From a virus, in IMG/VR virus record IMGVR_UViG_3300007770_001286, positions 1-59,138 of that record: DNA of 59,138 nucleotides; one strand, given 5' to 3'. Positions 15,567 to 53,038 of the stretch are shown one piece after another. Positions within the stretch are counted from its first letter, which is position 1; the number at the start of each line of letters is the position of its first letter. Made by a program: the position numbers and the translations under genes. The notes under the pieces were generated by a model, which saw only the letters and a program-made list of their open reading frames with translations, was not told the DNA's origin and did no database searches.

Positions 15567-16577
15567 TTGTTAGTTCATCTAGATTATCTCTGGGTTGACG
15601 GGTTTGATCATCCCGCACTCCGGTCAAAAACAAAAATGGTCCAGCTTACGCCTAATGAGGGTGGTGAAGTAGAGCTAAAAGTACCTGAGTGGAATTTTGA
15701 CGGTTCTTCCACAGGACAGGCTCCGACAGAAGATTCAGAAAGAATTTTAAAGCCTCACCGAGTATATCAAGTAGCAGATAATCATTACGTGGCTATTTGT
15801 GAAGTGTGTTTACCAGATGAGGAAAGAACACCACATGAAACAAATTATCGAGCCAAGCTACGTAAATTGGTCGAAGATGGCATTGCTACAAAAGAGTTGT
15901 GGATAGGGTTTGAGCAAGAGTACTTTATCACGTCAGAAGGCAAGAACGTTTTTTGGCCAGACCAGGGTGAGCCTATAAAAGATTCTCGCTATTACTGCTC
16001 ATCGGGTGGAAGTGTGAAGTATCGGAAGCTCGTTCGCGAACATGCATCTTTTTGTAATTCACTAGGGATTCGAGTTGTGGGTTACAACGCAGAGGTTTCG
16101 CCAGGTCAATGGGAATACCAGTGTTTTGGCGCAGATCCGCTAGAAGCATCAGACGCCCTTTGGGTAAGCCGCTATTTGCTGGAGCTAATGGCAGAAGACT
16201 TAGTACTCGGGATAGATTGGCACCCTAAGCCACATGCTGGATGGAATGGGTCAGGATGTCATACTAATTTTTCTACAAAATCAATGCGCGAATCCGGTGA
16301 AAAAGAAATCTTTGATAGGGTTATCGCCAACATGGAAAAATATCATGATGAATCGATTCGTGAGTATGGACCAGATAACGCCTTGAGGTTAACAGGCGGA
16401 TTTGAGACAGCAAGCATGGAAGAATTTAGTTGCGGAATCGCCTCCAGGGGAGCGTCAGTCCGGATCCCTAATTCAGTTCCAACAGCTGGATGGCGCGGAT
16501 ATCTTGAGGACCGGCGTCCATCATCGGGTTGTGATCCATATCGAGTTGCGCTACAAATTTGTAGATTTATTTTGTAG
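15567..16577 (+). CDS. Type II (eukaryotic-type) glutamine synthetase
   Basis: This 336-residue enzyme has the GSII signatures WNFDGSSTGQAPTEDSE, GFEQEYF, GYNAEVSPGQWEYQ, GWNGSGCHTNFSTKSM, RGASVRIPNSV and YLEDRRPSSGCDPY. All catalytic metal and ATP regions appear intact and the length is near that of full GSII, so activity is likely. It makes glutamine from glutamate, ammonia and ATP. The start is a TTG with GGAGG seven bases upstream. It sits between endolysin and thioesterase genes with no cognate nitrogen regulator. Glutamine feeds nucleotide synthesis, so a nitrogen-supply auxiliary metabolic role is inferred. Confidence 0.93.
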   Translation: MLVHLDYLWVDGFDHPALRSKTKMVQLTPNEGGEVELKVPEWNFDGSSTGQAPTEDSERILKPHRVYQVADNHYVAICEVCLPDEERTPHETNYRAKLRKLVEDGIATKELWIGFEQEYFITSEGKNVFWPDQGEPIKDSRYYCSSGGSVKYRKLVREHASFCNSLGIRVVGYNAEVSPGQWEYQCFGADPLEASDALWVSRYLLELMAEDLVLGIDWHPKPHAGWNGSGCHTNFSTKSMRESGEKEIFDRVIANMEKYHDESIREYGPDNALRLTGGFETASMEEFSCGIASRGASVRIPNSVPTAGWRGYLEDRRPSSGCDPYRVALQICRFIL

Positions 16578-17020: not shown

Positions 17021-17728
17021 GTGAAAAGAATCGAACTTTATGATGACGCCATTGGCGCAGTCGAATACGTGGAGCATATGGGATCCGATTTAACAGTGGT
17101 GAACAGCGCTAGGGTTTCTTTTGGAAAAGTTAGGGAAGAGTTAGATGGAAAAGATAAGAAGCTTATTCGTTATCTCATCAATCACAAGCATACGTCAACG
17201 CTTGAGCACAACGTTATCACTTTTCGCTTTACTGTACCTCTCTTTGTGCGTAGCCAGCACCATCGTCATAGAACTTGGTCTTATAATGAGATATCTCGAA
17301 GATACACTGACGTAGACATTCGCTTTTATGAACCTCAAGAGTTTAGAACACAGCACAAGTCCAATCGTCAAGCCTCTAATTTAAATAAGAAAATTGATCC
17401 TGTGATGATCCCTGATTTAAGCGATCCCGATTATGGCACTTCTGCGTCAAGCGTGGTCAGGACGCATAACAAGACATGTCTTACTCTTTACCATAGACTA
17501 ATGTCTTCCGGAGTGTGTCGTGAACAGGCTCGTGCTGTGCTTCCGCAAAGTTTATATACAGAGTATTACGGAACCGTTAATCTCAATAATTTATTAAAAT
17601 TTATCGAGCTGCGTTTGCATGAAAGTGCCCAGTGGGAGATACAGCAGCTAGCTAAAGCGTGCTTACAAATTGCCGAAGAAATCTGGCCTGAAACAATATC
17701 GGCTTATCGAGAACGTAAAATGACGTAG
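17021..17728 (+). CDS. thyX: Flavin-dependent thymidylate synthase
   Basis: This 235-residue protein carries the ThyX signature RHRTWSYNEISRRYT and flanking motifs (NHKHTSTLEHNVITF, CREQARAVLPQSLYTEYYGT). It methylates dUMP to dTMP using methylene-THF and FAD. The GTG start follows the previous stop with GGAG at good spacing. Since ThyX covers dTMP synthesis, the ThyA-family homologue at 25429 is free for another pyrimidine reaction. Confidence 0.95.
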   Translation: MKRIELYDDAIGAVEYVEHMGSDLTVVNSARVSFGKVREELDGKDKKLIRYLINHKHTSTLEHNVITFRFTVPLFVRSQHHRHRTWSYNEISRRYTDVDIRFYEPQEFRTQHKSNRQASNLNKKIDPVMIPDLSDPDYGTSASSVVRTHNKTCLTLYHRLMSSGVCREQARAVLPQSLYTEYYGTVNLNNLLKFIELRLHESAQWEIQQLAKACLQIAEEIWPETISAYRERKMT

Positions 17729-20141: not shown

Positions 20142-20432
20142 ATGGAAATTACTTCTGAAGTATCAGATGACCTGGATGTTACCGGGGTCGTTCACAATCT
20201 ATCCGACAATGCGATCGGTCATGTCGCGCAACTACTACAGCTTGCCATTCTTACAGGGACTGATATCATTGATCATTTTCGAGCAGTGAGTTTTACGATT
20301 AATGCGAATGATGGCAAAATAGAAGTTCACCCCCAGTACGCGGAAAATTTTAATAATAATCTTGAGCGTATGTTGGCTGAGGTTAACGAGAATATTACGA
20401 ACGCAACGGATGAAGAAGTTGTCGAACAATAA
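20142..20432 (+). CDS. Small acidic protein of unknown function
   Basis: This 96-residue protein has a strong ribosome binding site (AAGGAG) and its own candidate promoter. The composition is acidic with a predicted alpha/beta fold (VSFTINANDGKIEVHPQYA). It overlaps the following dUTPase-like gene by 23 bases. No family is recognised. Confidence 0.55.
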   Translation: MEITSEVSDDLDVTGVVHNLSDNAIGHVAQLLQLAILTGTDIIDHFRAVSFTINANDGKIEVHPQYAENFNNNLERMLAEVNENITNATDEEVVEQ

Positions 20433-20796
20433 GCTGGAAGAAGTATTCTCATTACGAGAAGAATTCATGAGCTTAATCAACGAGCGCATTCCTGATGCGT
20501 ATCCTCCCTGGCCAGTGGATCTTAGCAAGAAAAAGAACCAACAGGCTATTCGGGAATTTGCATTCCGGGGAATGGAAGAACTGTTTGAGGCCTTACTTCA
20601 CTTAAAGAATTGGAAGAATCATCGTGAAGCGACTTACGGTGTGCCAGAATTCGATCGTGAGGAATTTTTAGAAGAAATGATTGATGCGTTCAATTATTTT
20701 TTGGCGATTGTTGTTTTGGCTGGCGTGGATCATAAGGAATTTTTTGATGCCTATGTAAAGAAACATGGGATTATTTGTGAGCGTCTTAATGCATAG
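20410..20796 (+). CDS. All-alpha dUTPase / MazG-like NTP pyrophosphatase
   Basis: The 128-residue protein has the helical NTP pyrophosphatase pattern. REFAFRGMEELFEALLHLKN gives the first E-x-x-E metal motif, and EEFLEEMIDAFNYFLAIVV gives the second E-x-x-D motif. This resembles phage dimeric dUTPases. It would hydrolyse dUTP or a modified dNTP and protect DNA from uracil or supply dUMP to ThyX. The ATG at 20410 lies inside the previous gene with a weak site; an internal ATG at 20467 is possible but would remove a helix conserved in this family. Confidence 0.7.
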   Translation: MKKLSNNKLEEVFSLREEFMSLINERIPDAYPPWPVDLSKKKNQQAIREFAFRGMEELFEALLHLKNWKNHREATYGVPEFDREEFLEEMIDAFNYFLAIVVLAGVDHKEFFDAYVKKHGIICERLNA

Positions 20797-21754: not shown

Positions 21755-24700
21755 ATGCGAAAGACCTCACTTGCTCCACCCAGTAAGTTTATTTCCCTTC
21801 ATTCACATGATGGGTTTAGCACATTCGATGGCCTTGGCTACCCTCAAGAACATATAGATTTTGTTATTGAAAATGGTATGGATGGTTGGTGCCTCACGAA
21901 TCATGGTCACATGAATTCTTTTGGTCATGCTTTTTTGCATGCTGAAAAAGTTCAAAAGCGGGGAGGAAAATTTAGGTTTGTTCCCGGTTGTGAGATGTAT
22001 GTGCACCCAGATTTGGATGCATGGCAATTAGACTATGAGATTCGTCAAGCTGCGAAGAAGGGTGATAAAGAAGCTCTATTCGATCTTCGGACTCGTCGTG
22101 AAGCGATTGCGACCCCGCTGACTGCTGTTGTGGATGGTGATGATGAGATTATCGATATTGGAAAAGAAGAAGCAGGGTTGACTATCGAAAATGAAGAGGA
22201 AACGAAGTCATCAAAATTCTATGATCCGATCAAGCGCCGCCATCATCTAGTTGTTCTTCCCAAGACAAGCGAAGGCCTTCAGCGTTTATTTCATCTTGTC
22301 AGCCGTGGTTACAGAGAGGGCTTCTATCGCTTCCCACGAATCGATTATAAAATGCTAAGGGAAGCAGCTGAGGGTGGCCACTTGATGGTCTCAACAGCTT
22401 GTATCGGTGGCCCGATTGCTTATGAGGTGTTTAGACATGCTCAGCAGGTAGAATTTGATGATTTGAGTTATAAGCTCATGAATGACCCGTCATTTCGAAA
22501 TAGCGTTATGACTGGTGTTGGAAATGCGTACCAGGGTCTGGTCGATGCAGTCGGTATTGATGATGTGCATCTTGAGCTTCAATTTAATAAGCTTCCTGCT
22601 CAACATCTCGTTAATCGTGCAATTATTGAATTTGCCAACAACAACGGTTTGAATGATAAGCTTGTCGTAACGACTGATTCTCATTATGCTCGCCCAGAAC
22701 ATTGGCGCGAGCGTGAGCTTTATAAGAAGCTTGGGTGGCTGAACTACCGTGATTTTGATCCGTCAAAGCTTCCACAGTCGAAAGAAGAGCTTAAGTGCGA
22801 GCTATATCCTAAGAACGCCCAGCAGGTATGGGATACATATCTAGAAAGCACTGAAGGCATGGACTTCTACAATGATGAGGTTATGAAGGCAGCGATTGAG
22901 CGGCCGCACCAGATTGTGCATGAAGAAATCAGTGAAATTATTCCTGATCGTACCATGAAGCTTCCATCTTACGTCGTTCCCGAGGGACAGACAGATGATA
23001 AAGCGCTTCTTGAAGCTTGTAAGAAGGGGCTTGTCGAACGCGGTTTGGCGAACGACCCTAAGTACATTGAGAGGCTAAAGTACGAGCTAAAGATTATCAA
23101 AGACAAGAATTTCTCTCGTTATTTCTTGACTATGGCTGCGATTATCGGTATTGCAAAAAAAGCAATGCTTGTCGGTCCCGGTCGCGGTTCTGCCGCCGGA
23201 AGCTTGGTCGCTTATGTTCTTAAGTTAACAGACGTTGATCCGTTTGAATACGATCTTATGTTCGGCCGTTTTCTGAATCCGTCTCGTGAGGGTGCTCCCG
23301 ATATCGATACTGACGTAGGTGATCGTGATTTACTTATCAATATGATGAAAGATAAGTGGGGTGACGAAAATATTGTTCCCATCTCGAATTACAACACTTT
23401 CAAGTTAAAGTCTCTTGTCAAGGATATTTCTCGCTTTTATGGTATCCCGTTTAACGAGGTAAATAAGGCGTTGGCTCCTGTTGAAGAAGATGTAAAGCGT
23501 GCTGTGTTTAAGCAGGGGACAGATAAAAATCTGTTTGTTTTACTTTACGAAGATGCCCTAGCTCACTCAAAGACATTCAGGGCGTTTATCGAAGCCCATC
23601 CAGAAGTAGCTGCGCCGATTCAGGTTTTGTTCAAGCAGAACAAGGCTCTTGGTCGTCATGCTGGGGGTTGTATTGTCGCAGAGGATATTGCGGAAAGGAT
23701 GCCGTTGATCAAAGCTCGTGGTGAGCTCCAGACCCCATGGGTCGAAGGCATGAACTATAAGCACCTTGAGACCTTCGGGTGGATCAAGTTCGATCTTCTC
23801 GGTCTTGAAACGCTTCGTATTATCCAACGAACTATTGAGCTGATTCTCCAGCGGAGAGAAGGAATTGAAGAGCCCACGTTCTCGCAGGTTTACGAGTGGT
23901 TTGACAATAATATGAACCCTAAAGTTTTGGATATGGATGATCAACATGTCTACGAACATGTTTATGCTTCTGGTCGATGGGCTGGCATTTTTCAGTTGGC
24001 GGGACGCGGCGCTCAAAATCTTTTTAAGAAAGCTAAGCCAAAGAGTATTGTTGACATTGCAACGCTGACGTCTATTTATCGCCCTGGACCGTTAACTGCG
24101 AAAGTTGACCGTCTCTATATTAAGGCAAAGAATAATCCTGAAGCTGTTGACTACGGTCACCCCTTGATCAAGGAAGTGCTGGAGGAGACATACGGTCTAA
24201 TCGTCTTCCAGGAGCAGATCATGAAGCTCTGTTCTGTGGTCGCGGGTTTCCCGGAAGAAGAAACAGACACTGTCCGTCGTAGCATTATGAAGCGAAAAGC
24301 TTCGGAAGCCGCGGAAAGTCTCGCGAAAGCGAGAGCTATTAAGGAGCAGTTTGTTGCTGGCTCGGTTAAGAATGGCGTCGATCGCCAGTTGGCCGATGAC
24401 CTATACGAAAAGATCTTGTTTTTCGCTGGTTACGGCTTCAATAAATCTCATGCAGTCTGTTATGCTATTGACTCGTACTACTGCGCGTGGCTGCTGACAT
24501 ATTTCGAGGAAGAGTGGCTTTGCGCTTATTTGGAGGCTATGTCTGGTAACGATAAGAAGCGCGCAAAAGCATTTGCAGAAGTGAAGGCGCTTGGTCATCG
24601 GGTTGTTCCCATTGATATCAACTACGCTACTAAGAAGTGGACGATTCTTGAGGGCAAGAAGTTTATGCCATCTCTGCTTTCTTGTAAGGGGATCGGTGAA

Positions 24701-25375
24701 GCTGCTATTGATGAGCTAGTTAGGAACAGGCCATATCAGTCCATTGAAGACTTGCTCTGGGATGAGGACGGTAAGTGGAAGCATTCGAAGTTCAACAAGC
24801 GGGCGCTTGAAGCGTTAATTAACATTCGTGCGTTCAAATCGATGGACGTTGTCGGTTCGGATAAAATGTTCGAAAGCTACAAGCACATGCATGAAGTACT
24901 GATTAACCACAACACAGACATTAAAAAGTGGACCAAGCGTGACCCTAATCGGGGCCGTAATAACTTCAACGAAGCGCTGCTCGATACAGCAGGTATTGGT
25001 GGGTGGTCCCGGCGAGAGATGGTCGAAAACAGTGTAAAGCACTTTGGGTCGTTCAACGCCTCGACATTGATTAGCGAAGACGTGCAGGAACGGCTTGCTT
25101 CAAAAGAAATCAGATGCATTGATGAAATCGATGCCAGGGGACATGATCTCTACTGGTTCTTGGTGTCAGATGTTAAGCCGAAGCTTACGAAGAATAAGCG
25201 TCCTTATCTGCTTGTGACAGCTACAGGGCTCGATGGTAAGAATTATAGAATGTTCTGTTGGGGTTGGGATGGGGAGACGGATCTACCGTTGTACAGCCTT
25301 TGCGTTGCTGAGATCAAGAAAAATGATTTCGGATATCAAACTTCTATGAGAAAAATTAAGCTTCTTCGTATATGA
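21755..25375 (+). CDS. DNA polymerase III alpha-like (DnaE-type, family C) polymerase
   Basis: The 1206-residue protein begins with a PHP domain: SLHSHDGFSTFDGLG, LTNHGHM (usually T-D-H-G), FVPGCEMYV and TTDSHYA. Most metal residues are kept, but one Asp is Asn. The polymerase core has GPGRGSAAGSLVAY, the catalytic pair in APDIDTD, and IKFDLLGLETL with the third carboxylate. A C-terminal helix-hairpin/OB-like region follows. No beta-clamp-binding motif was identified with confidence. A GGAG site precedes the ATG. This should be the main replicative polymerase; the family A enzyme at 4109 may serve repair, primer gaps or origin synthesis. Confidence 0.95.
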   Translation: MRKTSLAPPSKFISLHSHDGFSTFDGLGYPQEHIDFVIENGMDGWCLTNHGHMNSFGHAFLHAEKVQKRGGKFRFVPGCEMYVHPDLDAWQLDYEIRQAAKKGDKEALFDLRTRREAIATPLTAVVDGDDEIIDIGKEEAGLTIENEEETKSSKFYDPIKRRHHLVVLPKTSEGLQRLFHLVSRGYREGFYRFPRIDYKMLREAAEGGHLMVSTACIGGPIAYEVFRHAQQVEFDDLSYKLMNDPSFRNSVMTGVGNAYQGLVDAVGIDDVHLELQFNKLPAQHLVNRAIIEFANNNGLNDKLVVTTDSHYARPEHWRERELYKKLGWLNYRDFDPSKLPQSKEELKCELYPKNAQQVWDTYLESTEGMDFYNDEVMKAAIERPHQIVHEEISEIIPDRTMKLPSYVVPEGQTDDKALLEACKKGLVERGLANDPKYIERLKYELKIIKDKNFSRYFLTMAAIIGIAKKAMLVGPGRGSAAGSLVAYVLKLTDVDPFEYDLMFGRFLNPSREGAPDIDTDVGDRDLLINMMKDKWGDENIVPISNYNTFKLKSLVKDISRFYGIPFNEVNKALAPVEEDVKRAVFKQGTDKNLFVLLYEDALAHSKTFRAFIEAHPEVAAPIQVLFKQNKALGRHAGGCIVAEDIAERMPLIKARGELQTPWVEGMNYKHLETFGWIKFDLLGLETLRIIQRTIELILQRREGIEEPTFSQVYEWFDNNMNPKVLDMDDQHVYEHVYASGRWAGIFQLAGRGAQNLFKKAKPKSIVDIATLTSIYRPGPLTAKVDRLYIKAKNNPEAVDYGHPLIKEVLEETYGLIVFQEQIMKLCSVVAGFPEEETDTVRRSIMKRKASEAAESLAKARAIKEQFVAGSVKNGVDRQLADDLYEKILFFAGYGFNKSHAVCYAIDSYYCAWLLTYFEEEWLCAYLEAMSGNDKKRAKAFAEVKALGHRVVPIDINYATKKWTILEGKKFMPSLLSCKGIGEAAIDELVRNRPYQSIEDLLWDEDGKWKHSKFNKRALEALINIRAFKSMDVVGSDKMFESYKHMHEVLINHNTDIKKWTKRDPNRGRNNFNEALLDTAGIGGWSRREMVENSVKHFGSFNASTLISEDVQERLASKEIRCIDEIDARGHDLYWFLVSDVKPKLTKNKRPYLLVTATGLDGKNYRMFCWGWDGETDLPLYSLCVAEIKKNDFGYQTSMRKIKLLRI

Positions 25376-25428: not shown

Positions 25429-26460
25429 ATGCATATTGGCACATATCAATCATTCACTCACTGTTACTTGTCTTTGGTAAGACATGTTTATGAAAATCCG
25501 ACTTACGAATCTGCTCCACGCGGGCAGAGGGTCAAAGAACTCTTAGGAGCTTCTTTTACGATTACAAATCCACGTGATCGTATTCCTTACGTTACCGGTA
25601 GAAAGTTTAGCATGACTTATATGGTCGCCGAGCTTATCTGGTATTTGTCAGGAAGCAATAAGACGGAGTGGATTGCGAATTATTCTAATTTTTGGCGCGA
25701 TATTTCTGATGATGGAGTAACAGCAAACTCTGCGTACGGCGCAAGACTGTTTCAGCCTCACCACAAAATCGCTCAAGGACGATTTAGTCAGTGGGAATAT
25801 ATCATAGAAGAATTGCAGAGGGATCCTGATTCGCGTCGGGCAGTCATGCATCTTCGTGTTCCTGATGATAGCGTAGATGCGAAGCTAGATGTCCCCTGTA
25901 CACTTGCACTTCAATTTTTTATCCGTGATGGAAAGCTGCACCAGATTGTTAATATGAGAAGTTCTGATGTAATTTTTGGAATCGCTTATGACATTCCAGC
26001 TTTTACTCTTTTTCAAGAGCTTCTTGCCAATGAACTCGGGGTCGAGCTCGGGTCGTACACTCATATGAGCAATTCTCTGCATATCTATGAACGACATTTT
26101 GAGATGGCCGAGACGATTCTTAAAACATCGAATGTAAATCGATCACAGTTTGAGCTGTACAAGCGGAATGGACCGATGCCACCGATTGAGTGTGACTGTT
26201 CAGATCAAAGAAATTTCTTTATTGAGAAGCTGATGAGTTTTGAAGAAGACCTTCGTAAGTGCAACAGCTCATCTGCCGTTGAGCATGGCTTTCGAAGAGC
26301 CTTTGCGTATTCGTCAAGGGACGCATTTATGTGGCACGATTGGGGTATTATCTTAGCGGCTGATAGAATGAGAAAGCTTGGAGATAAAGAGTTAGCTAAA
26401 GAAATGCTTGAAAATTTGAAATTTAGCGGTTATCGTTTCAATATTAGGAGAAGGCAATGA
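25429..26460 (+). CDS. ThyA-family pyrimidine (probable dCMP) hydroxymethylase
   Basis: The 343-residue protein has the thymidylate synthase fold with catalytic C157 in LDVPCTLALQFF, NMRSSDVIFG (175-184) and LHIYERH. Two positions differ from true ThyA. The residue after the catalytic Cys is Thr rather than His. The Asn that reads the uracil ring (in ThyA PFNIA) is Asp188 in AYDIPAF. T4 dCMP hydroxymethylase shares both changes and the NMRSxDVxFG block. I therefore favour dCMP as substrate and hydroxymethyl- or methyl-dCMP as product, with ThyX making dTMP. The stop overlaps the mutase gene. Confidence 0.78.
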   Translation: MHIGTYQSFTHCYLSLVRHVYENPTYESAPRGQRVKELLGASFTITNPRDRIPYVTGRKFSMTYMVAELIWYLSGSNKTEWIANYSNFWRDISDDGVTANSAYGARLFQPHHKIAQGRFSQWEYIIEELQRDPDSRRAVMHLRVPDDSVDAKLDVPCTLALQFFIRDGKLHQIVNMRSSDVIFGIAYDIPAFTLFQELLANELGVELGSYTHMSNSLHIYERHFEMAETILKTSNVNRSQFELYKRNGPMPPIECDCSDQRNFFIEKLMSFEEDLRKCNSSSAVEHGFRRAFAYSSRDAFMWHDWGIILAADRMRKLGDKELAKEMLENLKFSGYRFNIRRRQ

Positions 26461-27575
26461 GCCGTCGAAAGTACGACTATCTGATTGTAGGAGCAGGCAT
26501 CTTTGGAGCGACATTCGCTAGAGAGATGACTGATGCTGGTAAAGAGTGTCTGGTAATTGATAAACGCCCTCACATCGGTGGGAACGTTTATTCCGAAAAG
26601 CGGAACGGTGTAGACGTTCATGTCTATGGTGCTCATATTTTTCACACGAATAATGAGAGGATCTGGGATTATGTTAATCGTTTTGCTACGTTTAACAATT
26701 ATGTAAACAAGCCAAAAATTCGCTTCAATGATCGGATCTTTTCATTCCCAATTAATCTGATGACTCTACACCAGCTTTGGGGTGTTATGACACCAGCAGA
26801 AGCTGAGAAGAAGTTAGAAGAAGTCAGGATCCCATGCGAGAATCCAGACAACCTTGAGGACTGGATCTTATCCCAGGTTGGACGTGAGGTGTATGAGACG
26901 TTTATCAAGGGTTATACAATGAAGCAGTGGCAGCGTGATCCGAAAGAACTACCGGCTTCTATTATTAAGCGTCTACCGATTAGGATGGTATTTGAAGAGA
27001 ATTATTTCTTTGACAAATATCAGGGTATCCCGATTGACGGTTATACTTCAATGGTGGCAAATATGCTGAAAGGTGTTTCAGTATGGACGGGTGTTGATTA
27101 CTTTTCAGATAAGGAGGAGTTTGATTCTCTTGCTGACAAGGTTGTGTTTACTGGAAAGATCGATGAATACTTCGGATTTCGCTATGGTGAGCTAGAGTAT
27201 CGGACGTTGCGGTTTGAGCATGAAGAGCTCGAGGGTGATTTTCAAGGAAACGCTGTAGTGAACTATACACACCCAGATGTTCCATTCACAAGAATTGTAG
27301 AGCACAAGCATTTTTTACCAGCAACAGCGGGTAAGCTTAAGAATACAATCATTACAAGAGAGTACTCTGACGAATATAGCAGGGGTAAGACGCCCTATTA
27401 TCCGATCAATGATGAGAAGAACGGTGCTATGTTTAAGAAGTATGCAGCCCTCGCTGCTGAACAAGATGGGATAATTTTTGGTGGAAGATTGGCAGAGTAC
27501 AAGTACTATGATATGCATCAGGTGATTGGTTCTGCTCTTGTAAAAGCTAAGCGTGAGCTTGAAAACAATGCTTAG
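26457..27575 (+). CDS. glf: UDP-galactopyranose mutase-like flavoenzyme
   Basis: The 372-residue protein starts with a FAD-binding Rossmann motif (YLIVGAGIFGATFAREM). HIGGNVY, VHVYGAHIFHTNN, FNNYVNKP and the Glf-typical FIKGYTMKQWQRDP follow. The end has GRLAEYKYYDMHQVIGSAL. All hallmark UGM segments are present. The enzyme interconverts UDP-pyranose and UDP-furanose sugars (galactose, or arabinose in related enzymes). AGGAG precedes the ATG, which overlaps the upstream stop. Being locked to a hydroxymethylase gene suggests that a furanosyl sugar ends up on DNA rather than on a cell envelope; that is inference. Confidence 0.93.
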   Translation: MSRRKYDYLIVGAGIFGATFAREMTDAGKECLVIDKRPHIGGNVYSEKRNGVDVHVYGAHIFHTNNERIWDYVNRFATFNNYVNKPKIRFNDRIFSFPINLMTLHQLWGVMTPAEAEKKLEEVRIPCENPDNLEDWILSQVGREVYETFIKGYTMKQWQRDPKELPASIIKRLPIRMVFEENYFFDKYQGIPIDGYTSMVANMLKGVSVWTGVDYFSDKEEFDSLADKVVFTGKIDEYFGFRYGELEYRTLRFEHEELEGDFQGNAVVNYTHPDVPFTRIVEHKHFLPATAGKLKNTIITREYSDEYSRGKTPYYPINDEKNGAMFKKYAALAAEQDGIIFGGRLAEYKYYDMHQVIGSALVKAKRELENNA

Positions 27576-27587
27576 ACTTGCTATAAT
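27559..27587 (+). promoter_or_regulatory. Sigma70-type promoter for the sugar gene cluster
   Basis: TTGAAA (27559-27564) and TATAAT (27582-27587) are 17 bases apart. They overlap the end of the mutase gene and precede the gene at 27609. Confidence 0.75.
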
Positions 27588-27608
27588 GAATAGTAACTCG
27601 GAGAAATA

Positions 27609-28664
27609 ATGAGAGTACTTTACAGTTTTTGGGGGTTTATTACTCCCCTTGAAAAGAACAGCGTTGTCAACACACCAGACGGTGAGCGTGGCAATCGTGT
27701 GGATTGGGTAAATGAATTACTAAAGCGTGGTCATACCCCTGTTCAGCTACAGCGTATGCGGGATGATGAGCAATATCCCGGCGTAGAATATGATGACGCT
27801 GGATTTCCGGATGGTGATATCTTGTATGTCGAATGGCGTTGGCCAACTTGGAAAAATAGCGGAGAAAATCCCGCTGAGCCGGACTACAATCGTCAGTGTG
27901 AGGTTCTTGATTATTACCATGGGCAGGGTATTCCAATTGTTATTGTCGATGGTGACCTTAAGATGACTCCCGAAGAAGAGCTTCGTTGGCCTAACGCCGT
28001 CTTAGCAGACGCGTGTGTTTCTCCTCGTCATCAGACCCGTAAGCGAATTACGATTCCATGGTGCAATTATATGAAGAGGTATTTCGAGCCAGTCGAGTAC
28101 TCTTACAACTATACTTACGTTGGGAATAACTACGAGCGTGAAGAGCAATTCGCGAAATACTATACGACCCCCAGCCCTGTCCTCAGAGAAGCTGGTATTC
28201 AGACTATGATTTATGGAAACTGGTTGAATAAATCACCTGAGAGAATCGATCCCGCCGTTTTGCTGGCTCAGACACCGAATGTGGCATTCGGTCCCCGGCT
28301 GGCTTATAAAGATATCTTCAAAGTGCTGAACGAATCAATTACTGTAACTCATATTACAAAGCCGGCTTACACTCCTTACGGAAATATCACTGGTCGATTC
28401 TTTGAAGCGATTAAGAGTAATGTACCTGCTCTCGTTCCGATCGAGTTTCAGCACGCTATTCCGGTAGGACTTGCTGATAAGTCTTTGCTGGTTGAAACCT
28501 GGTTGGATGTTGTAGAAAAAACTAAGTGGATCGCGACGCTGGACGCTACCGAACGGAAAGCTCTTGTTGATGCACAAGAGGAGGCTCTGAGGACCGTGAT
28601 CGATCCCAGGCCTGAATATAGGACTGATTTGCTTGAACACATTCTGAGTGATTATAGGGCATGA
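27609..28664 (+). CDS. Putative GT-B-type glycosyltransferase
   Basis: The 351-residue protein has two Rossmann-like halves. The N-terminal half has VLYSFWGFITP and GDILYVEWRWPTW. The C-terminal half has YGNWLNKSP and a segment GNITGRFFEAIKSNVPALVP that matches the R-x-F-E sugar-nucleotide-binding signature of GT-B glycosyltransferases. No family was named. It sits between the mutase and a nucleotide-kinase-like gene, which suggests transfer of a furanosyl sugar to modified DNA or a precursor. GGAG precedes the ATG, which follows a good promoter. Confidence 0.6.
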   Translation: MRVLYSFWGFITPLEKNSVVNTPDGERGNRVDWVNELLKRGHTPVQLQRMRDDEQYPGVEYDDAGFPDGDILYVEWRWPTWKNSGENPAEPDYNRQCEVLDYYHGQGIPIVIVDGDLKMTPEEELRWPNAVLADACVSPRHQTRKRITIPWCNYMKRYFEPVEYSYNYTYVGNNYEREEQFAKYYTTPSPVLREAGIQTMIYGNWLNKSPERIDPAVLLAQTPNVAFGPRLAYKDIFKVLNESITVTHITKPAYTPYGNITGRFFEAIKSNVPALVPIEFQHAIPVGLADKSLLVETWLDVVEKTKWIATLDATERKALVDAQEEALRTVIDPRPEYRTDLLEHILSDYRA

Positions 28665-29218
28665 AGATAGCATTCATCGGACCTGATATGACTGGAAAGT
28701 CGAATATCGCTGCTGAGCTTTCTCGCCAGACTGGTATTCCTGTTTTTAAGAATTCCGGGGAATGGAAAACACAATTGGACAGCCCAGATTACTTTCTTAA
28801 CCTTTTGCGGTACGGCGGTCCGTTTTTGATGGATTTCATGCACCAAACAGATGCGTCAGTTATCTTAGACCGCTTTTATCCTTGTGAGCTTGTTTATGCT
28901 AGCGCATTCGAGCGTCCTACTGATCTTGACGCAATTACATGGATGGATGATAAGTTTGCAGAGGTAAACGGCAAATTCATTCTTTGTTTACGAAAAGATT
29001 ACTCTGGTTTGGTTGATGACCAGTATCCAGATCAGTTACCACCGGAAATGCTGAAAGTCCTGGATAAACATTATCGAACGTTTTATGAAACGACGACATG
29101 TGAATGTCTTATTTTGGAAACCGATGATATGGACTTGAACAAACAGGTAAAGAAGATTAAAATGTTTTTAGGAATCAGTAAAGACTTAAACGCGGAGGAT
29201 TTTTGTGCATACACGTAA
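28661..29218 (+). CDS. P-loop deoxynucleoside/deoxynucleotide kinase-like protein
   Basis: The 185-residue protein has a Walker A motif, IAFIGPDMTGKSN, and an ILDRFYPCELVY segment like the DR(Y/F) motif of thymidylate and deoxynucleoside kinases. An LID-like basic helix lies near 110. It would phosphorylate a (modified) deoxynucleotide. By its neighbours, the T4 gene 1 role of raising hydroxymethyl-dCMP to the triphosphate is a plausible hypothesis. It overlaps both adjacent genes. Confidence 0.72.
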   Translation: MKIAFIGPDMTGKSNIAAELSRQTGIPVFKNSGEWKTQLDSPDYFLNLLRYGGPFLMDFMHQTDASVILDRFYPCELVYASAFERPTDLDAITWMDDKFAEVNGKFILCLRKDYSGLVDDQYPDQLPPEMLKVLDKHYRTFYETTTCECLILETDDMDLNKQVKKIKMFLGISKDLNAEDFCAYT

Positions 29219-30230
29219 AGCATTAGTCACAGGTTGCTGTGGCTTTATTGGTAGTCATGTAACACGTCAGCTTGTTGCTGCCGGATGGAGTGTCGAGGGG
29301 GTTGATGATTTATCGAATGGAGACCTGGCAACTTTAAGCGGACTTGAATTTAGAACGGTTACTGAGCACGTTCTACACCTGTATGATCAAAACAATACTG
29401 GTCCGTCGATAGTAGAAGAACCGGGTTCATTGCTTGTTATTACATCAGATTTCGCTGCAGGACCCATTCTACAGCGCGTCGCAGCCGGAAGGTATGATGT
29501 GATTTTTCACCTGGCCGCAAATCCTCGTGTAGAGTATTCAGTTAAATTTCCAGCTCTTACGACGCATACGAATGTTCAAAAAACAATTGAATTAATGTCT
29601 GCTGCCATTGATAAGATCGATCGTTTTGTTTTCGCGTCCTCGTCTGCATGTTATGGCGAAGTTTCTAGACTTCCCACAAATGAGAATGAAGCAGAAGATC
29701 CGACATCTCCCTACGGGTTGCAGAAGTTGGTGGTAGAGCAGTTTGGAGAAATGTACAATCGCCTGTATGGGATGGATTTTGTTGCGCTAAGGTTCTTTAA
29801 TGTGTACGGTCCGGGACAGTTGGGGGATTCTCCCTATTCAACTGCTGTTGCTGCGTGGTGTACACGACTAAAGAACGGTGAACCGCTTCGAAGTGATGGT
29901 GATGGTGAACAAACTAGGGACATGGTGTATGTAAAAGACGTAGCAAATGCGATGTTAGTTGCTGCTGATTACCCGGCTATTCTGGGATTTGAGATGTACA
30001 ACGTCGCAACTGGCACAGCTGTTTCGAATAACCAAATTCTTGCAACACTTAATGAGCAATTTTCTGAACTTTCCATTGCTCACGCACCAGAAAGACAGGG
30101 CGATGTCAAGCACACTCTCGGGTGTATAAATAAGATTAGTGAAGAACTTGGATGGATCCCTCAGGTTAAATTCTGGGATGGTCTAAATCAAACATTAAGA
30201 TGGTGGGAGTTGATTGAGACAGATGAATAG
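29205..30230 (+). CDS. NAD-dependent sugar epimerase/dehydratase (extended SDR)
   Basis: The 341-residue protein has the extended-SDR Rossmann motif LVTGCCGFIGSHV, HLAANPRVEYS, VFASSSACYG with catalytic Ser, and the Y-x-x-x-K pair in PYGLQKLVVEQ. LRFFNVYGPGQ and TRDMVYVKDVANAM follow. This is the UDP-glucose 4-epimerase-like group. It could make UDP-galactose or UDP-arabinose for the mutase two genes upstream. The GTG start has GGAGG upstream and lies inside the kinase gene. Confidence 0.9.
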   Translation: MHTRKALVTGCCGFIGSHVTRQLVAAGWSVEGVDDLSNGDLATLSGLEFRTVTEHVLHLYDQNNTGPSIVEEPGSLLVITSDFAAGPILQRVAAGRYDVIFHLAANPRVEYSVKFPALTTHTNVQKTIELMSAAIDKIDRFVFASSSACYGEVSRLPTNENEAEDPTSPYGLQKLVVEQFGEMYNRLYGMDFVALRFFNVYGPGQLGDSPYSTAVAAWCTRLKNGEPLRSDGDGEQTRDMVYVKDVANAMLVAADYPAILGFEMYNVATGTAVSNNQILATLNEQFSELSIAHAPERQGDVKHTLGCINKISEELGWIPQVKFWDGLNQTLRWWELIETDE

Positions 30231-30654
30231 ATGCGTATGGGCCAGTACATCTTCTTCAGAAGAGAAGCCTTGGGGCTATGAAATTCAGTGGAACGGCTTG
30301 TTTCATGGAAAAGAAATTCACCTTCGAGCAGGTCATCGCACGAGTCTTAAGTTCCATCCTACTAAAAATGAAGTTCTGTATATTCAACATGGAGAGATCC
30401 TTGCAGAAATCGCAGATGAAAGACACTTTCATAATTCAATTCAAGAGCCAGCGCGCTTGGTCACCCTAAAAAAGGGAGACATTCTGAATATTCAGGCAGG
30501 TTGCGCGTATCGATTGACTGCTCAAGATGATAGTGTGGTATTTGAAATTTCTGATGGCAATTGTGGCGAACCGATACGGCTGGAAGATGATTATGGAAGG
30601 GACACAACAGAGGACAAAAAATATACTTTTGTTCATCCGAAAAAACATAATTAA
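30223..30654 (+). CDS. Cupin protein (mannose-6-phosphate isomerase type II-like)
   Basis: The 143-residue protein has the sugar isomerase cupin pattern: EKPWGYEIQW, GKEIHLRAGHRTSLKFHPTK (metal His and Glu region), NEVLYIQHGEIL and a second motif near DILNIQAGCAYRL. It may isomerise a sugar phosphate or bind a nucleotide sugar. It overlaps the epimerase gene, which supports one sugar pathway. The ATG at 30223 is preferred to a TTG at 30214. Confidence 0.75.
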   Translation: MNRCVWASTSSSEEKPWGYEIQWNGLFHGKEIHLRAGHRTSLKFHPTKNEVLYIQHGEILAEIADERHFHNSIQEPARLVTLKKGDILNIQAGCAYRLTAQDDSVVFEISDGNCGEPIRLEDDYGRDTTEDKKYTFVHPKKHN

Positions 30655-30674
30655 ATTTCTATCGCGAGGGTATA

Positions 30675-31529
30675 ATGAGTACAATGGACCCAAATTCAGT
30701 TAATGTCGTAATCTATCATGCTGACTGCACAGACGGTTTCGGGGCGGCATATTCTGCATGGAAGCAGTTAGGGAATAGAGCAGAGTATTACGCTTGTAAG
30801 CATGGTACCCCGCCACCCGATGTTAAAGGAAAAAATGTAGTTATTCTGGATTTCTCTTATGATAAATCTACAACGAAGAAGATGATAAAGAAAGCCAAAA
30901 ATCTTATGATTATCGATCATCACAAGTCTGCGATGGTTGAACTTCATGATATCTCTAACACTCATTTTGATATGACAAAGAGCGGTGCAATACTGGCGTG
31001 GGAATATTTCCACCCGGGTAAGGAGCCACCGAAGTTTATCAAATATATTCAGGATCGAGACCTGTGGAAGTGGGAACTTGAGTATTCAAAAGAGTTTAGT
31101 GCAGCATTCGATATGGTACCGTTTGAGTTTGAAGAGTTCGAAAAGTTTGAAGATGACTCTGTGTTTGATGATGCATGTAAGCGAGGATCTTACATCCTGG
31201 CGTACAGTAAGACTGTTGTCAAAAAGGTCTGTGAAAAAGCGCAGCCCCGCATGATGGATGGGAAGGAAGTGCTGGTAGTAAATGCTTCTCACTGGATGTC
31301 AGAAATCGGAGCACGGCTTTCTCCTGATTGCGATTTTGCTTTGATCTGGTATTGGGATCATGAAGATGAAATAACGAAAGTCAGCTTACGAGCTTTTCAT
31401 GAGAGCGTTGACGTATCAGAAATTGCTAAGAGCTTTGGTGGCGGTGGCCACAAGAAAGCTGCTGGATTTACTTTACCTAAGGAGAAACACATTGAAGAAC
31501 TTTTTGACACAACCGAAGCCGAGGTTTGA
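30675..31529 (+). CDS. DHH/DHHA1 phosphoesterase
   Basis: The 284-residue protein has YHADCTDGFGAAY, VVILDFSYD, LMIIDHHKSA (the DHH motif) and the C-terminal DHHA1 element FGGGGHKKAAGF. This is the NrnA-like/RecJ-like family, which degrades short oligonucleotides or cyclic dinucleotides. In a phage it could recycle nanoRNA for nucleotide pools or remove signalling nucleotides such as c-di-AMP or CBASS-type products; this second idea is inference. GAGGG precedes the ATG. Confidence 0.88.
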   Translation: MSTMDPNSVNVVIYHADCTDGFGAAYSAWKQLGNRAEYYACKHGTPPPDVKGKNVVILDFSYDKSTTKKMIKKAKNLMIIDHHKSAMVELHDISNTHFDMTKSGAILAWEYFHPGKEPPKFIKYIQDRDLWKWELEYSKEFSAAFDMVPFEFEEFEKFEDDSVFDDACKRGSYILAYSKTVVKKVCEKAQPRMMDGKEVLVVNASHWMSEIGARLSPDCDFALIWYWDHEDEITKVSLRAFHESVDVSEIAKSFGGGGHKKAAGFTLPKEKHIEELFDTTEAEV

Positions 31530-32085
31530 CATTGTCTATTTGGATCCACCATGGGATTACAAGGGCCAGCTACAACATTCTAAACCTGGAATGGGTGATA
31601 CAGGTGGGGCTCGCAAGCATTATGGTACACTCAAGCTAAAGCAGCTAAAGCAGTTTCCAATGCAGAAGCTTCTCAACGAAGATTCTCTTGTCTTTATGTG
31701 GGTAACAAACCCTCATCTTGATCAGGGGATTGAGCTTCTAAAAAGCTGGGGGCTAAAATATTCTACCGTTGCATTCGTTTGGAATAAGATGAGAGTTAAT
31801 CCCGGATTTTATACCATGTCGCAGTGTGAGCTTTGTCTTGTTGGAAAAAATGGAAAAATTCCTCGACCTCGAGGTGCCAGAAATGTACGACAATATTTAG
31901 AGCACCTCCGTGAAGAGCATAGTAAGAAACCAGATGAAGTTCGAACTCGCATTGAGCAGATGTTTCCAGACCAGACGAAGGTTGAACTGTTTGCTCGCCA
32001 CCAGTTACCTGGATGGTCAGTTTGGGGAGATGAAGTCGAAAGCTGTGATAGCCTTAAGGGGTACTTGAATGAGCTCGGATGGTAG
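31492..32085 (+). CDS. MT-A70-like adenine N6-methyltransferase
   Basis: The 197-residue protein begins with DIVYLDPPWDY, the DPPW motif of MT-A70 m6A methyltransferases. FMWVTNPHLDQG, FVWNKM and VELFARHQLPGWSVWGDE follow. The TTG start at 31492 is chosen because AAGGAG lies seven bases upstream; it lies within the DHH gene in another frame. It would methylate adenine in DNA (or RNA), often for restriction evasion. The position in the base-modification module is notable. Confidence 0.85.
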   Translation: MKNFLTQPKPRFDIVYLDPPWDYKGQLQHSKPGMGDTGGARKHYGTLKLKQLKQFPMQKLLNEDSLVFMWVTNPHLDQGIELLKSWGLKYSTVAFVWNKMRVNPGFYTMSQCELCLVGKNGKIPRPRGARNVRQYLEHLREEHSKKPDEVRTRIEQMFPDQTKVELFARHQLPGWSVWGDEVESCDSLKGYLNELGW

Positions 32086-32488
32086 ACCACATTGGGATGA
32101 AATATGGATGGGTTTTGCTCACTCCATAGCTCGTAGATCGTATGACCCACGGTACCAGGTAGGTGCAGTGATCGTGACAGATGAAAATACTCAAGTACTC
32201 GCTGTCGGTTATAATGGAAATTATTCAGGCGGACCAAATGAGGTTGAGTCTGCTGAGCCAGGAAATTCAGGGATGATTCATGCAGAGATTAACGCACTGC
32301 TTAAGTGCGACTATAATAATCGCGGTAAAAAGATAATGTATATTACCTTAAGCCCTTGCAAGATGTGCGCGAAGGCTATTATTAACGGTGGCGTAAAAGA
32401 GGTAGTTTTTGATGAAGAATACCGCGATTTGTCTGGTATCGAGCTATTACGGTCAGCAGGAGTTTCAGTTAGGCGCTACACAACGTAG
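32069..32488 (+). CDS. dCMP deaminase
   Basis: The 139-residue protein has the zinc deaminase motifs HAEINAL and SPCKMCAKAII, with dCMP-deaminase-type surroundings (SYDPRYQVGAVIV, GYNGNYSGG). It converts dCMP to dUMP for ThyX. An AAGGGG site lies inside the previous gene, with which it overlaps by 17 bases. In T4-like metabolism this enzyme sits in the same complex as dCMP hydroxymethylase, in keeping with the proposed function at 25429. Confidence 0.92.
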   Translation: MSSDGRPHWDEIWMGFAHSIARRSYDPRYQVGAVIVTDENTQVLAVGYNGNYSGGPNEVESAEPGNSGMIHAEINALLKCDYNNRGKKIMYITLSPCKMCAKAIINGGVKEVVFDEEYRDLSGIELLRSAGVSVRRYTT

Positions 32489-46848: not shown

Positions 46849-47011
46849 AAAGCTTCAGGAGCTCAGAGCACAAGGGGTAATTCAAGAAAATGAAATTGCT
46901 GTAGAAGAGGGCGATTTGATTGTTGCTCTCAATGTGATTACTGGCGAAAGAAGGCTTCTAAGCAAGAATCTGCAAGAATCGTCCAGCGGCAAGAGGTTAC
47001 TTAAAGGATGA
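46823..47011 (+). CDS. Small protein of unknown function
   Basis: The 62-residue protein overlaps the FEN gene by 26 bases and the GroEL-like gene by 4. It has a helical start and two strands (GDLIVALNVITGERRLL). No family is recognised. Its coupling to groEL makes a chaperonin-cofactor idea worth testing, but there is no GroES-like mobile loop to see. Confidence 0.5.
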   Translation: MAQNTLSPEKLQELRAQGVIQENEIAVEEGDLIVALNVITGERRLLSKNLQESSSGKRLLKG

Positions 47012-48588
47012 TTGAGCAAGAAAATCGTGTTATAACATTTTCAGAAGAGTCCCGAGATTTAGTTAGGGTCGGTGTTGAGCAATTGGCTGATGCTGTCCGT
47101 GTAACGATGGGCCCATCTGGGAAAAATGTTTTGATTGAACACCCTGGTTCCGCCCCTGTCTTGACCAAAGATGGGGTGACAGTAGCTCGGGCCATCAATT
47201 TAAAAGATCGTTTTGCAAATTTGGGCGTTCAGATTGTGAGAGAAGCTGCACAGCGTACGGCAGAAGAAGCCGGTGATGGAACTACAACTGCGACGGTTTT
47301 GGCTTGCGCAATATTTCAAGAAGGGTTGAAGGCTCTTGCTGGAGGGCACGAATTAAGAGTGATTCGAGACGGTATAAGGGAGGCAACAACTCTTCTCTGC
47401 CATGAAATCGAAAAGAACGCTGTCCCTGTAAAGTCTGATGAAGACTTAAGGAGGGTCGCTAATATCTCTGTTAATAATGAGCCAGATCTAGCTGAATTGA
47501 TTGTAGAGGCGATAAAGGCAGTAGGGGATCATGGCACAGTAACTGTTGATGAAGCCAAGGGTTTCGATTCTTCGCTTGAAGTTGTCGACGGGTGTGAATT
47601 GGATAGAGGATATGTTTCTCCATATTTTGTGAACAAACCTGCTCGGATGTCTTGTGAACTTTTCAATCCAGCAATTTTGGTCACTGATCAACGCATAAGC
47701 TCTATACACGACATTATGCATTTTATGGAAGAAGCAGCACGTGAGAATAGACCATTTGTGATCATCGGCCCAGAGACAACGGGAGATGCGCTACAGGGGC
47801 TTATTCTCAACAACACAAAGAACCTCATCAAGGCATGCGTGTTAGCTGCTCCAGAATTTGGGACTTCTCGTCTTGAAGCGCTCCATGATTTAGCTATTCT
47901 TTTGGGAGCCGATCTCTTGACGGGTGAGCCCGCGAGCTGGCGAAATGTGAAGCTCACTGATTTGGGATCCTGTAAGAAGATAGCAGCGTATAGATACCGC
48001 ACCATCTTCATTGACGCAACAGGAGATAGCGAGTCTAGGGAAGACCGTATTCAGCAGATAAAAGAAGCAGCGAACGAGTACATAGGCGATGCAGAAATGA
48101 TTAGCGTTTTAACTCGCCGCGTGAAGAGGATGAATAGCGGAATCGGTATTTTACGAGTAGGTGGAGCAACTGAAGCTGAAATAAGCGAAAGAAAAGACCG
48201 CGTTGAAGATGCGCTCTATGCTACGAAGGCAGCAATGCAAGAAGGGATCGTAGCCGGTGGAGGTTCACTGCTCGCAAAAGTTGCTAAATTGCAGCTTGAT
48301 AAAAAAGACTCTCTCTCGATTGGTCACAAGATTTTGTTCAGCGCTGCATGTGAACCTCTTAAGCAGATTGCTTCTAATTGCGGGTCAGTTCCTGAGGTTA
48401 TTCTAGAAAAGATTGTTGAAAAACCAAAGAATTTTGGATATAATGGAATTGATGGCGATGTTTGTAATCTCATGAAGACTGGAATTGTAGACCCTGCGAA
48501 GGTTACTCGATTAGCGCTCCAGAATGCGTCGAGTGTTTCTATTAATTTGTTATCGATTGGGTGCGCAATGGTCAGGGATGATGAATAA
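47008..48588 (+). CDS. GroEL-like chaperonin
   Basis: The 526-residue protein covers a whole Hsp60 chain: VTMGPSGKNVLIE, KDGVTVARAI, the ATPase loop AGDGTTTATVLA, VGDHGTVTVDEAKG, apical and intermediate segments, RVGGATEAEISERKDRVEDAL and the end motif AAMQEGIVAGGGSLL. Length and motifs imply an active ATP-driven folding ring. The C-terminal Gly-Met tail of bacterial GroEL is missing. No GroES gene was found in the window, so it may use the host GroES or none. It probably folds capsid or other phage proteins. Confidence 0.95.
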   Translation: MIEQENRVITFSEESRDLVRVGVEQLADAVRVTMGPSGKNVLIEHPGSAPVLTKDGVTVARAINLKDRFANLGVQIVREAAQRTAEEAGDGTTTATVLACAIFQEGLKALAGGHELRVIRDGIREATTLLCHEIEKNAVPVKSDEDLRRVANISVNNEPDLAELIVEAIKAVGDHGTVTVDEAKGFDSSLEVVDGCELDRGYVSPYFVNKPARMSCELFNPAILVTDQRISSIHDIMHFMEEAARENRPFVIIGPETTGDALQGLILNNTKNLIKACVLAAPEFGTSRLEALHDLAILLGADLLTGEPASWRNVKLTDLGSCKKIAAYRYRTIFIDATGDSESREDRIQQIKEAANEYIGDAEMISVLTRRVKRMNSGIGILRVGGATEAEISERKDRVEDALYATKAAMQEGIVAGGGSLLAKVAKLQLDKKDSLSIGHKILFSAACEPLKQIASNCGSVPEVILEKIVEKPKNFGYNGIDGDVCNLMKTGIVDPAKVTRLALQNASSVSINLLSIGCAMVRDDE

Positions 48589-48922: not shown

Positions 48923-48985
48923 ATTAAAGATGGTAGGGACAGTTATGTCGCTTCATTCTTTCATTCATCCCTGGAGACATAATTG

Positions 48986-52681: not shown

Positions 52682-53038
52682 GTGTACTATCGAGCTAAGA
52701 ATCTCGCGCTCAATAATGGTAGACATTATCATCTTGCTGCAATTTTGAAGCGTAACGGGAAAGTCGTTAGGGTTGGTGAAAATACTGACAAAACGCACCC
52801 TCGCTTTAAGAGACAATATGCTGACGGAACGTGGGCTTCTCATATGCACGCAGAGATGAATGTTTTGAGATTTGCTCAGCCCGGTGATGAATTAGAGGTT
52901 ATCAGATTTAAGAAATGTGATCATGAAAGGACCATGGCTAGACCATGTCCTTTATGCATGCAGGAAATTAGAAAAGCTGGAATAAAGAGAGTTAAATACA
53001 CGAATTGGGACGGTGAGTGGGAGGAGATAGAGCTGTGA
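52682..53038 (+). CDS. Second zinc deaminase-like protein
   Basis: The 118-residue protein has H-A-E (SHMHAEMNVLRF) and P-C-x-x-C (RPCPLCMQEIRKAG), the cytidine/deoxycytidylate deaminase zinc motifs. It is shorter than and different from the dCMP deaminase at 32069, and lies in a separate operon. The substrate is unknown: a nucleotide, a base or tRNA. The only start in this frame is a GTG with no good site. An ATG seven bases upstream with an AGGA site runs in another frame and stops after seven codons, so a frame change at the N-terminus is possible. Confidence 0.75.
   Translation: MYYRAKNLALNNGRHYHLAAILKRNGKVVRVGENTDKTHPRFKRQYADGTWASHMHAEMNVLRFAQPGDELEVIRFKKCDHERTMARPCPLCMQEIRKAGIKRVKYTNWDGEWEEIEL

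Follow-up and report, generated by a model that had tools for sequence, protein, structure and literature searches.

Phage DNAs whose cytosines carry glucose- or arabinose-type sugars are already known. The present work concerns a 59,138-base stretch of virus DNA, IMG/VR record IMGVR_UViG_3300007770_001286 from position 1 to 59,138 (the window), in which an enzyme of the thymidylate synthase (TS) superfamily stands directly before a uridine diphosphate (UDP)-galactopyranose mutase (UGM, or Glf) and a candidate DNA glycosyltransferase (GT). With these genes the phage very probably makes hydroxymethyl-deoxycytidine, and the resulting hydroxymethylcytosine (hmC) is probably glycosylated; that the sugar is specifically galactofuranose stands at slightly less than even chances. 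Put forward more tentatively still is the full proposal that the DNA carries 5-(galactofuranosyloxymethyl)cytosine by way of the phage's own mutase, and that this solution arose more than once, including as a mutase fused to a DNA-GT-like domain that possibly hands on the donor.

The T4 system of gene 42 and beta-glucosyltransferase (BGT) resembles the window in its Asp179-type active site and neighboring GT-B transferase. Unlike T4, the window adds a UGM and an epimerase, its TS-family enzyme is nearer in sequence to MilA and to that of Lactobacillus phage ATCCB, and its GT is not a clear member of the T4 BGT family. MilA, the cytidine monophosphate (CMP) 5-hydroxymethylase of mildiomycin, is the best PDB relative of the window enzyme and shares the Asp (Asp186), but it has Lys133 and Ala176 where the window has Arg136 and Ser178. 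In arabinosylating phages a TS-family enzyme makes 5-hydroxy-deoxycytidine monophosphate (5-hydroxy-dCMP) and arabinose is attached to it directly, according to the available text of PMC13390438, which corrects the arabinosyl-hmC of PMC6024577. The arabinosyl or pentosyl cytosine pathway of RB69 and Thanatos also has a TS-family enzyme with the Asp, and the RB69 stretch likewise holds sugar genes and a kinase. These phages differ from the window in having Ala and Asn at two folate-site positions, and the fetched RB69 stretch has isomerase and nucleotidyltransferase-like genes and no annotated UGM. Enterococcus phages VPE25 and VFW encode a TS-family enzyme of the Asp type with a BGT-family gene close by (in VPE25 the enzyme is 39.4% identical to that of the window and the BGT-family gene lies one gene further on); unlike the window, they gave no UGM match in the fetched 16.6-kb stretch. 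Bisulfite, EcoRI, MspI, and PvuRts1I tests reported in the available text of PMC4999554 have shown that VPE25 DNA is cytosine-modified, and its authors raised the possibility of further DNA modification by a galactofuranosyltransferase-like protein. Among Enterococcus records, the UGM search gave Efs 1-1-1 alone. The window genes on which the comparison turns are as follows.

17021-17728, plus strand: ThyX flavin-dependent thymidylate synthase, an independent supply of deoxythymidine monophosphate (dTMP) (PF02511, 1.6e-49)
25429-26460, plus strand: 343-residue enzyme of the thymidylate synthase superfamily, dCMP hydroxymethylase type (PF00303, 1e-38)
26457-27575, plus strand: UDP-galactopyranose mutase (PF03275, 1.1e-77; TIGR00031, 374 bits; PDB 1i8t, 1.8e-130)
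27609-28664, plus strand: GT-B-fold glycosyltransferase, candidate hmC-DNA glycosyltransferase (weak PF13524 match, 7.1e-4, below cut-off)
28661-29218, plus strand: P-loop protein of deoxynucleoside monophosphate (dNMP) kinase fold, candidate hydroxymethyl-dCMP (hmdCMP) kinase (P-loop GPDMTGKS)
29205-30230, plus strand: nicotinamide adenine dinucleotide (NAD)-dependent nucleotide-sugar epimerase, GalE-like (PF01370, 1.6e-47; PDB UDP-glucose 4-epimerase 4zrm, 5.9e-46)

Probable Hydroxymethylation of dCMP

The enzyme at 25429 matched MilA best in the PDB (4.8e-47), followed by the best thymidylate synthase (1.1e-24) and T4 dCMP hydroxymethylase (4.8e-19). Aligned with T4 gp42, its residues C157, T158, S178, and R136/R137 stand opposite C148, T149, S169, and R123/R124, and D180, D188, W89, and E68 opposite D171, D179, W82, and E60. 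Asp188, facing Asp179 of T4 gp42 and Asp186 of MilA, takes the place of the uracil-reading Asn, and the block NMRSSDVIFG faces NMRSNDVVFG of T4 gp42. The initial annotation had pointed to this Asp, to the Thr after the catalytic Cys and to the block, and the alignments to T4 gp42 and MilA confirm all three. The catalytic Cys and cytosine-reading Asp of the T4 gp42 type (C157, D188), the deoxyribose-preferring Arg and Ser (R136, S178) and counterparts of the folate-site Trp82, Asp171, and Glu60 (W89, D180, E68) are thus present together; the roles of the folate-site residues are those described for T4 gp42 in the available text of PMC6400193. Work on MilA, as far as the available text of PMC5175136 goes, took Asp186 as the mark of a cytosine substrate and Arg/Ser replacing Lys133/Ala176 as that of a deoxyribose substrate, and the double exchange at Lys133 and Ala176 switched MilA to dCMP. 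In the accessible part of the MetaGPA study (PMC8670742), two E. coli TS positions, 177 (Asn to Asp) and 147, ranked highest as discriminators between modified and unmodified contigs. At these the window enzyme reads Asp and Thr, position 147 being the residue after the Cys.

The Asp was present in 36 of 37 distinct TS-family sequences aligned, a count drawn from sequences picked as relatives and not from a neutral sample; the exception, Montesquieu, has Asn. A 30-row TS set gave 27 Asp and three Asn (Montesquieu, a T4-like td, and Goe26 thyA). The 25429 enzyme scored below the cut-offs of all eight listed NCBIfam thymidylate synthase models. Among eight virus records searched (one being the same virus), every one held a single PF00303 gene and seven held ThyX, so dTMP need not depend on the 25429 enzyme; the records searched for UGM, GT, PF00303, and ThyX may be fragments. 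The predicted conversion of dCMP to hmdCMP is well supported by the sequence comparisons.

The possibility that the enzyme is of the hydroxylating, arabinose-linked kind deserves separate attention, as bit scores were about equal for T4 gp42 (71.8), RB69_048 (69.7), and Thanatos TH1_062 (68.5). Trp89, Asp180, and Phe183 of the window lie opposite Trp82, Asp171, and Phe174 of T4, positions occupied by Ala, Asn, and Val in RB69_048 and Thanatos. Retention of these three residues places the window enzyme with the hydroxymethylases. Ala/Asn at T4 W82/D171 as the sign of the RB69 type is a criterion of this study, drawn from two sequences with OLIVR5 added for its similarity, and RB69_048 is regarded as a 5-hydroxy-dCMP synthase from its annotation and genomic place. 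The Trp89 position depends on the alignment, with td and Montesquieu also reading Ala and Goe26 Met in the 30-row set.

Three other assignments were considered for the enzyme. A thymidylate synthase with dTMP as its main product was rejected on Asp188, Thr158, the separate ThyX and the scores below the TS model cut-offs; in place of the ThyA signature Asn177/His147 (E. coli numbering) the enzyme has D188 and T158. A CMP hydroxymethylase of the MilA/BcmA kind was rejected despite the best PDB match, with R136/S178 instead of Lys133/Ala176. A 5-hydroxy-dCMP synthase of the RB69 type is not supported, W89 and D180 being in place.

The hydroxymethylase has a C-terminal extension of about 100 residues past the PF00303 match (26161-26457), where T4 gp42 has 246 residues in total. 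The extension gave no Pfam match and lies outside the best PDB alignments. In the Agrobacterium phage OLIVR5 (L174, 3989-4753), the annotated dCMP hydroxymethylase has Ala/Asn, as in RB69, and the phage also carries a UGM; furanosyl-hydroxycytosine is possible in that phage.

UDP-Galactopyranose Mutase and Its Neighborhood

The gene at 26457 is a true UGM by sequence. It passed both UGM models with a margin (TIGR00031 equivalog, 374 against 303.75 bits; PF03275, 260.7 against 26.3 bits) and aligned with E. coli Glf (1i8t) over almost the full length. The conserved active-site segments GYTxKQW, RxPxR, TRIxEHKHF, PYYPxND, and EYKYYDM of E. coli Glf are all present. The hydroxymethylase stop and the UGM start share four bases (ATGA, 26457-26460), with GGAG upstream. 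Both the overlap and the mutase identity had been proposed in the initial annotation.

Neighborhoods of viral UGMs were compared at the best 80 of 338 loci from a viral scan, with flanks of at most 10 kb and in many cases shorter. Nineteen of the 80 UGMs are 72-100% identical to that of the window, and all 19 have a TS-family gene directly before the UGM. The GT comes next, within about 0.2 kb, in 18 of them; the remaining contig (L075) ends at the UGM. One of these contigs is the same virus and several are near-identical copies; together the 19 hold 13 distinct TS-family proteins. Adjacency on so many contigs with 13 distinct TS-family proteins is not a matter of chance. No TS-family gene was found in the fetched flanks of the other 61 UGM loci (identity of 64% or less), or in the UGM-bearing phage stretches L161, L162, L163, and phiM9 (L150). 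The neighborhood therefore characterizes this one lineage, and phage UGMs in general do not share it. An Agrobacterium phage paper, in its available text, regards UGM as a cell-wall gene (PMC6630229).

Glycosyltransferase and Kinase

An AlphaFold model of the 27609 protein, built on an 18-row alignment, has a GT-B fold with a predicted local distance difference test score (pLDDT) of 77. VIA-align placed T4 BGT (1qkj) first among its structural matches (Z 21.2, root-mean-square deviation (rmsd) 3.7, 303 residues aligned), and T4 alpha-glucosyltransferase gave Z 18.8. Comparison by hhalign with a profile of the T4, ATCCB, and VPE25 transferases aligned the C-terminal half (87.5%, 3.6e-6). Because the model is a GT-B with T4 BGT first, though tied, and the neighborhood is conserved, a DNA-acting transferase at 27609 is plausible. 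Searches by tblastn with the GT and with the kinase against 50,697 phage records gave no match at 1e-5.

The AlphaFold model of the 28661 protein (pLDDT 87) resembled thymidylate kinase 4s35 (Z 17.2, rmsd 2.9, 168 aligned) and YorR 3kb2 (Z 17.1). An hmdCMP kinase role is presumed by analogy with T4 gp1. In both clades that have the GT, the kinase gene lies beside it on every contig long enough to include the kinase. A kinase relative also lies near the enzyme, without a GT, in L013 and L015, as would suit a kinase acting on nucleotides.

Recurrence in Other Phages

In ATCCB, genes for a TS-family enzyme, a GT, and a UGM follow one another in the GenBank annotation (locus 0045-0047). The enzyme has the Asp and the GT is of the BGT type; the TS-family protein is 41.5% and the UGM 46.5% identical to those of the window. 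The 17 kb fetched from ATCCB contained nothing that matched the epimerase or kinase of the window; about 3 kb downstream, the annotation lists a deoxynucleoside kinase. A term search of the available text of the ATCCB paper (PMC6563214) for DNA-modification words gave no match. A 300-kb contig (L025; IMGVR_UViG_3300028805_000037) has the order kinase-like gene, GT, UGM fusion, dCMP deaminase, hydroxymethylase. Its GT is homologous to that of the window (24% by tblastn; hhalign 99.3%, 6.8e-21), and its hydroxymethylase is close to T4 gp42. The fusion gene (L025, 7490-9547) joins the UGM to a C-terminal domain with a match to phrog_842, beta-glucosyl-HMC-alpha-glucosyltransferase (3.9e-6). The fused domain gave no Pfam match at E 1 and no significant BLASTP match to T4 BGT. 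Among phage records it matched Nonlabens phage P12024L (one phage, two records; 34% over 27% of the query, 2e-3), of which one matching record is annotated beta-glucosyl-HMC-alpha-glucosyltransferase. The window, ATCCB, and L025 enzymes fall on separate branches of a 30-sequence TS tree, which has weak deep forks and long branches and was used for local grouping only.

Proposed Pathway

The plus-strand run reads DnaE, TS-family enzyme, UGM, GT, kinase-like protein, epimerase, cupin, DHH, MT-A70, and dCMP deaminase. The same or a very close virus is found on a 119-kb IMG/VR contig, where 12 compared window proteins are 99-100% identical. The remaining genes of the run, with one further upstream, are as follows.

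20362-20796, plus strand: MazG/PRA-PH-type nucleotide pyrophosphohydrolase, candidate enzyme for removal of deoxycytidine triphosphate (dCTP) (PF01503, 2.4e-5; phrog_12184, 1.1e-12)
21755-25375, plus strand: DnaE-type DNA polymerase III alpha, expected to incorporate modified dCTP (PF07733, 6.8e-55)
30214-30654, plus strand: cupin-fold protein, possible sugar isomerase (Cupin_1, 8e-4, below cut-off)
30675-31529, plus strand: DHH-family phosphoesterase (DHHA1, 2.6e-10; phrog_4771, 1e-78)
31399-32085, plus strand: MT-A70-type adenine methyltransferase (PF05063, 6e-26; phrog_359 DNA methyltransferase, 1.3e-62; MTase_II, 4.3e-58)
32069-32488, plus strand: dCMP deaminase (PF00383, 9.8e-23; phrog_174, 8e-50)

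A MazG/PRA-PH-type gene also lies upstream of DnaE in the UGM-bearing relatives. The initial annotation of 25429-32488 was accurate in its coordinates, named genes, and residues, including the order of the glycosyltransferase-like, nucleotide-kinase-like, epimerase, cupin, m6A-type methylase, and dCMP deaminase genes and the assignment of dTMP supply to ThyX. Its gene list left out the DHH phosphoesterase and the upstream MazG/PRA-PH-type gene. The synthesis of hydroxymethyl-dCMP that it proposed is well supported by the residues, the relatives, the dNMP-kinase-fold neighbor, ThyX, and the modified cytosine of VPE25.

In the pathway envisaged, the MazG-type enzyme and dCMP deaminase would drain unmodified dCTP and dCMP, and ThyX would make dTMP. 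The 25429 enzyme would convert dCMP and methylene-tetrahydrofolate to hmdCMP, which the 28661 kinase would phosphorylate; a host kinase would complete hydroxymethyl-dCTP, to be incorporated by the phage DnaE. The GalE-like epimerase would give UDP-galactopyranose and the UGM UDP-galactofuranose, from which the 27609 GT-B would place galactose, likeliest as galactofuranose, on the hydroxymethyl group in DNA as a shield from host nucleases. The hydroxymethylase residues, the UGM identity, the kinase and GT-B folds, the conserved gene order, and the recurrence support the corresponding parts, and we infer every substrate and product. That the module makes and decorates hmC DNA by these steps is given an even chance.

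The initial annotation had left the furanosyl sugar as galactofuranose or arabinofuranose. Galactofuranose stands as the reading that would best account for the UGM; arabinofuranose is not supported, since the available text of PMC13390438 describes a 5-hydroxy-dCMP route for arabinosyl-cytosine and the window enzyme differs from those of RB69 and Thanatos at Trp89 and Asp180.

Alternative Explanations

Several observations weigh against galactofuranose or against parts of the pathway. Seven contigs of a sister clade (L042, L044-L047, L049, and L051) have the order DnaE-GT-kinase-enzyme-epimerase with no UGM in the operon and none in any of the seven records, and therefore the GT may not need UDP-galactofuranose there. 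Nine of the 16 virus records searched have no UGM; in two others (G002 and G005) it lies about 143 kb and about 32 kb from the enzyme. A further sister-clade record (G018) has its UGM in what looks like a surface-sugar cluster, as read from open reading frames (ORFs) with no family search. L013, L014, and L015 keep the enzyme (50-57%), the epimerase, and dCMP deaminase and have no GT homologue in their records, and the record of L016 (G005) is also without a GT. In relatives without a GT or UGM the hmC may be bare or bear another sugar, and a pyranosyl donor may serve the GT; for L013, L014, and L015, bare hmC or another transferase is perhaps the case. The top structural matches of the window GT are tied, with many other, non-DNA GT-Bs within 1 Z, and it has no significant PHROG (phrog_7922, 0.28) or NCBIfam match. 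The ATCCB GT is a different protein, of the phrog_7922 BGT type (4.9e-60), and the L025 fusion is known from one contig only, scans with the fused domain or the L025 GT having returned that same contig. The epimerase falls under the GalE equivalog cut-off (TIGR01179 galE, 153.7 against 262.3 bits); its best PDB relative is a UDP-glucose 4-epimerase, so that it may still work like GalE. No place in the pathway was found for the cupin or the DHH gene.

The hmC could carry a pyranose, galactose or glucose, with the GT using UDP-galactose from the epimerase directly and the UGM being a passenger or serving another product. In favor of this are the retention of GT, kinase, hydroxymethylase, and epimerase in the sister clade without a UGM in the operon, and T4 BGT, a pyranosyl enzyme, as the nearest though tied structure. 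Against it stand the TS-family gene adjoining the UGM on all 19 close contigs, the GT next in 18, and the return of the same partners in ATCCB and L025, and a pyranose is judged rather unlikely. The DNA could instead carry hmC while UGM, GT, epimerase, and cupin build a surface or virion glycan from an operon merely shared with nucleotide genes. A phage UGM at L087 sits in a surface-sugar-like cluster (by ORF reading), none of the 61 UGM loci beyond the clade of the window has a TS-family gene nearby, and cupins and epimerases are typical of sugar pathways. A glycan role is nevertheless improbable, given that only one GT occurs among ten operon proteins scanned, the other partners being mostly nucleotide or DNA enzymes, that GT and kinase remain neighbors in the two clades with a GT, and that the L025 UGM is fused to a domain like hmC-DNA glucosyltransferases.

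Doubt about the base itself is slighter. Were the 25429 enzyme to make 5-methyl-dCMP or dTMP, there would be no hydroxymethyl acceptor; the exchange of Asn for Asp alone can switch thymidylate synthase to dCMP with 5-methyl-dCMP as the product, according to the available text of PMC8670742. This is very improbable, with hydroxymethylase MilA well ahead of any thymidylate synthase as the nearest characterized relative, a GT gene following, and ThyX present. Arabinosylated cytosine of the RB69 kind would combine a 5-hydroxy-dCMP synthase with arabinofuranosyl transfer, the UGM acting on UDP-arabinopyranose. The near-equal scores for T4 gp42, RB69_048, and Thanatos TH1_062 would permit this, but the window keeps Trp89, Asp180, and Phe183, and the Pfam scan of ten operon proteins found no isomerase of the kind in the RB69 annotation; arabinose as the sugar is not supported and is considered very improbable.

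Novelty and Significance

No description of furanosyl-hmC was recognized among the papers that searches of open-access PMC brought up, and no open PMC paper was found to pair 'dCMP hydroxymethylase' with 'UDP-galactopyranose mutase'. The claim in the initial annotation that the combination is new or little described holds to this extent; it is tempered by ATCCB, which has the same three gene types, and by the speculation of the VPE25 authors in the available text of their paper. The locus is taken as a glycosylated-hmC module of known type whose sugar is probably new. A sugar on cytosine influences the cutting of phage by restriction, Type IV, and clustered regularly interspaced short palindromic repeats (CRISPR) systems. 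Galactofuranose, if confirmed, would be a sugar that glucose-tuned defenses may miss and would bring a new enzyme for the labeling of hmC in DNA. The operon is a compact, cloneable gene set, and the idea could be tested at once on ATCCB, an isolated phage that has all three gene types.

Other Genes of the Window

The cupin gave other weak matches, to a lyxose/mannose isomerase model (0.021, below cut-off) and in the PDB (best 0.067). In L029/L032-type relatives the MT-A70 methylase shows only about 30% similarity, and in those of the L039/L042 type it was not detected; being diverged or undetected, it is not core to the module, and the pattern suggests gene exchange at this spot (31399-32085). 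A second small deaminase-family gene lies at 52682-53038 (PF00383, 2.5e-7), and a glutamine synthetase-like gene at 15567-16577 (PF00120, 4.3e-16). The window also carries phage copies of a GroEL-type chaperonin (47008-48588), a sigma-70 factor (48983-49744), and a peptide deformylase (50894-51544). On the minus strand are a Tubulin/FtsZ-like protein (55484-56695; PF00091, 1.2e-4, below cut-off) and a transfer-messenger RNA gene (57055-57398) with the tag ANNNNHFEYALAA.

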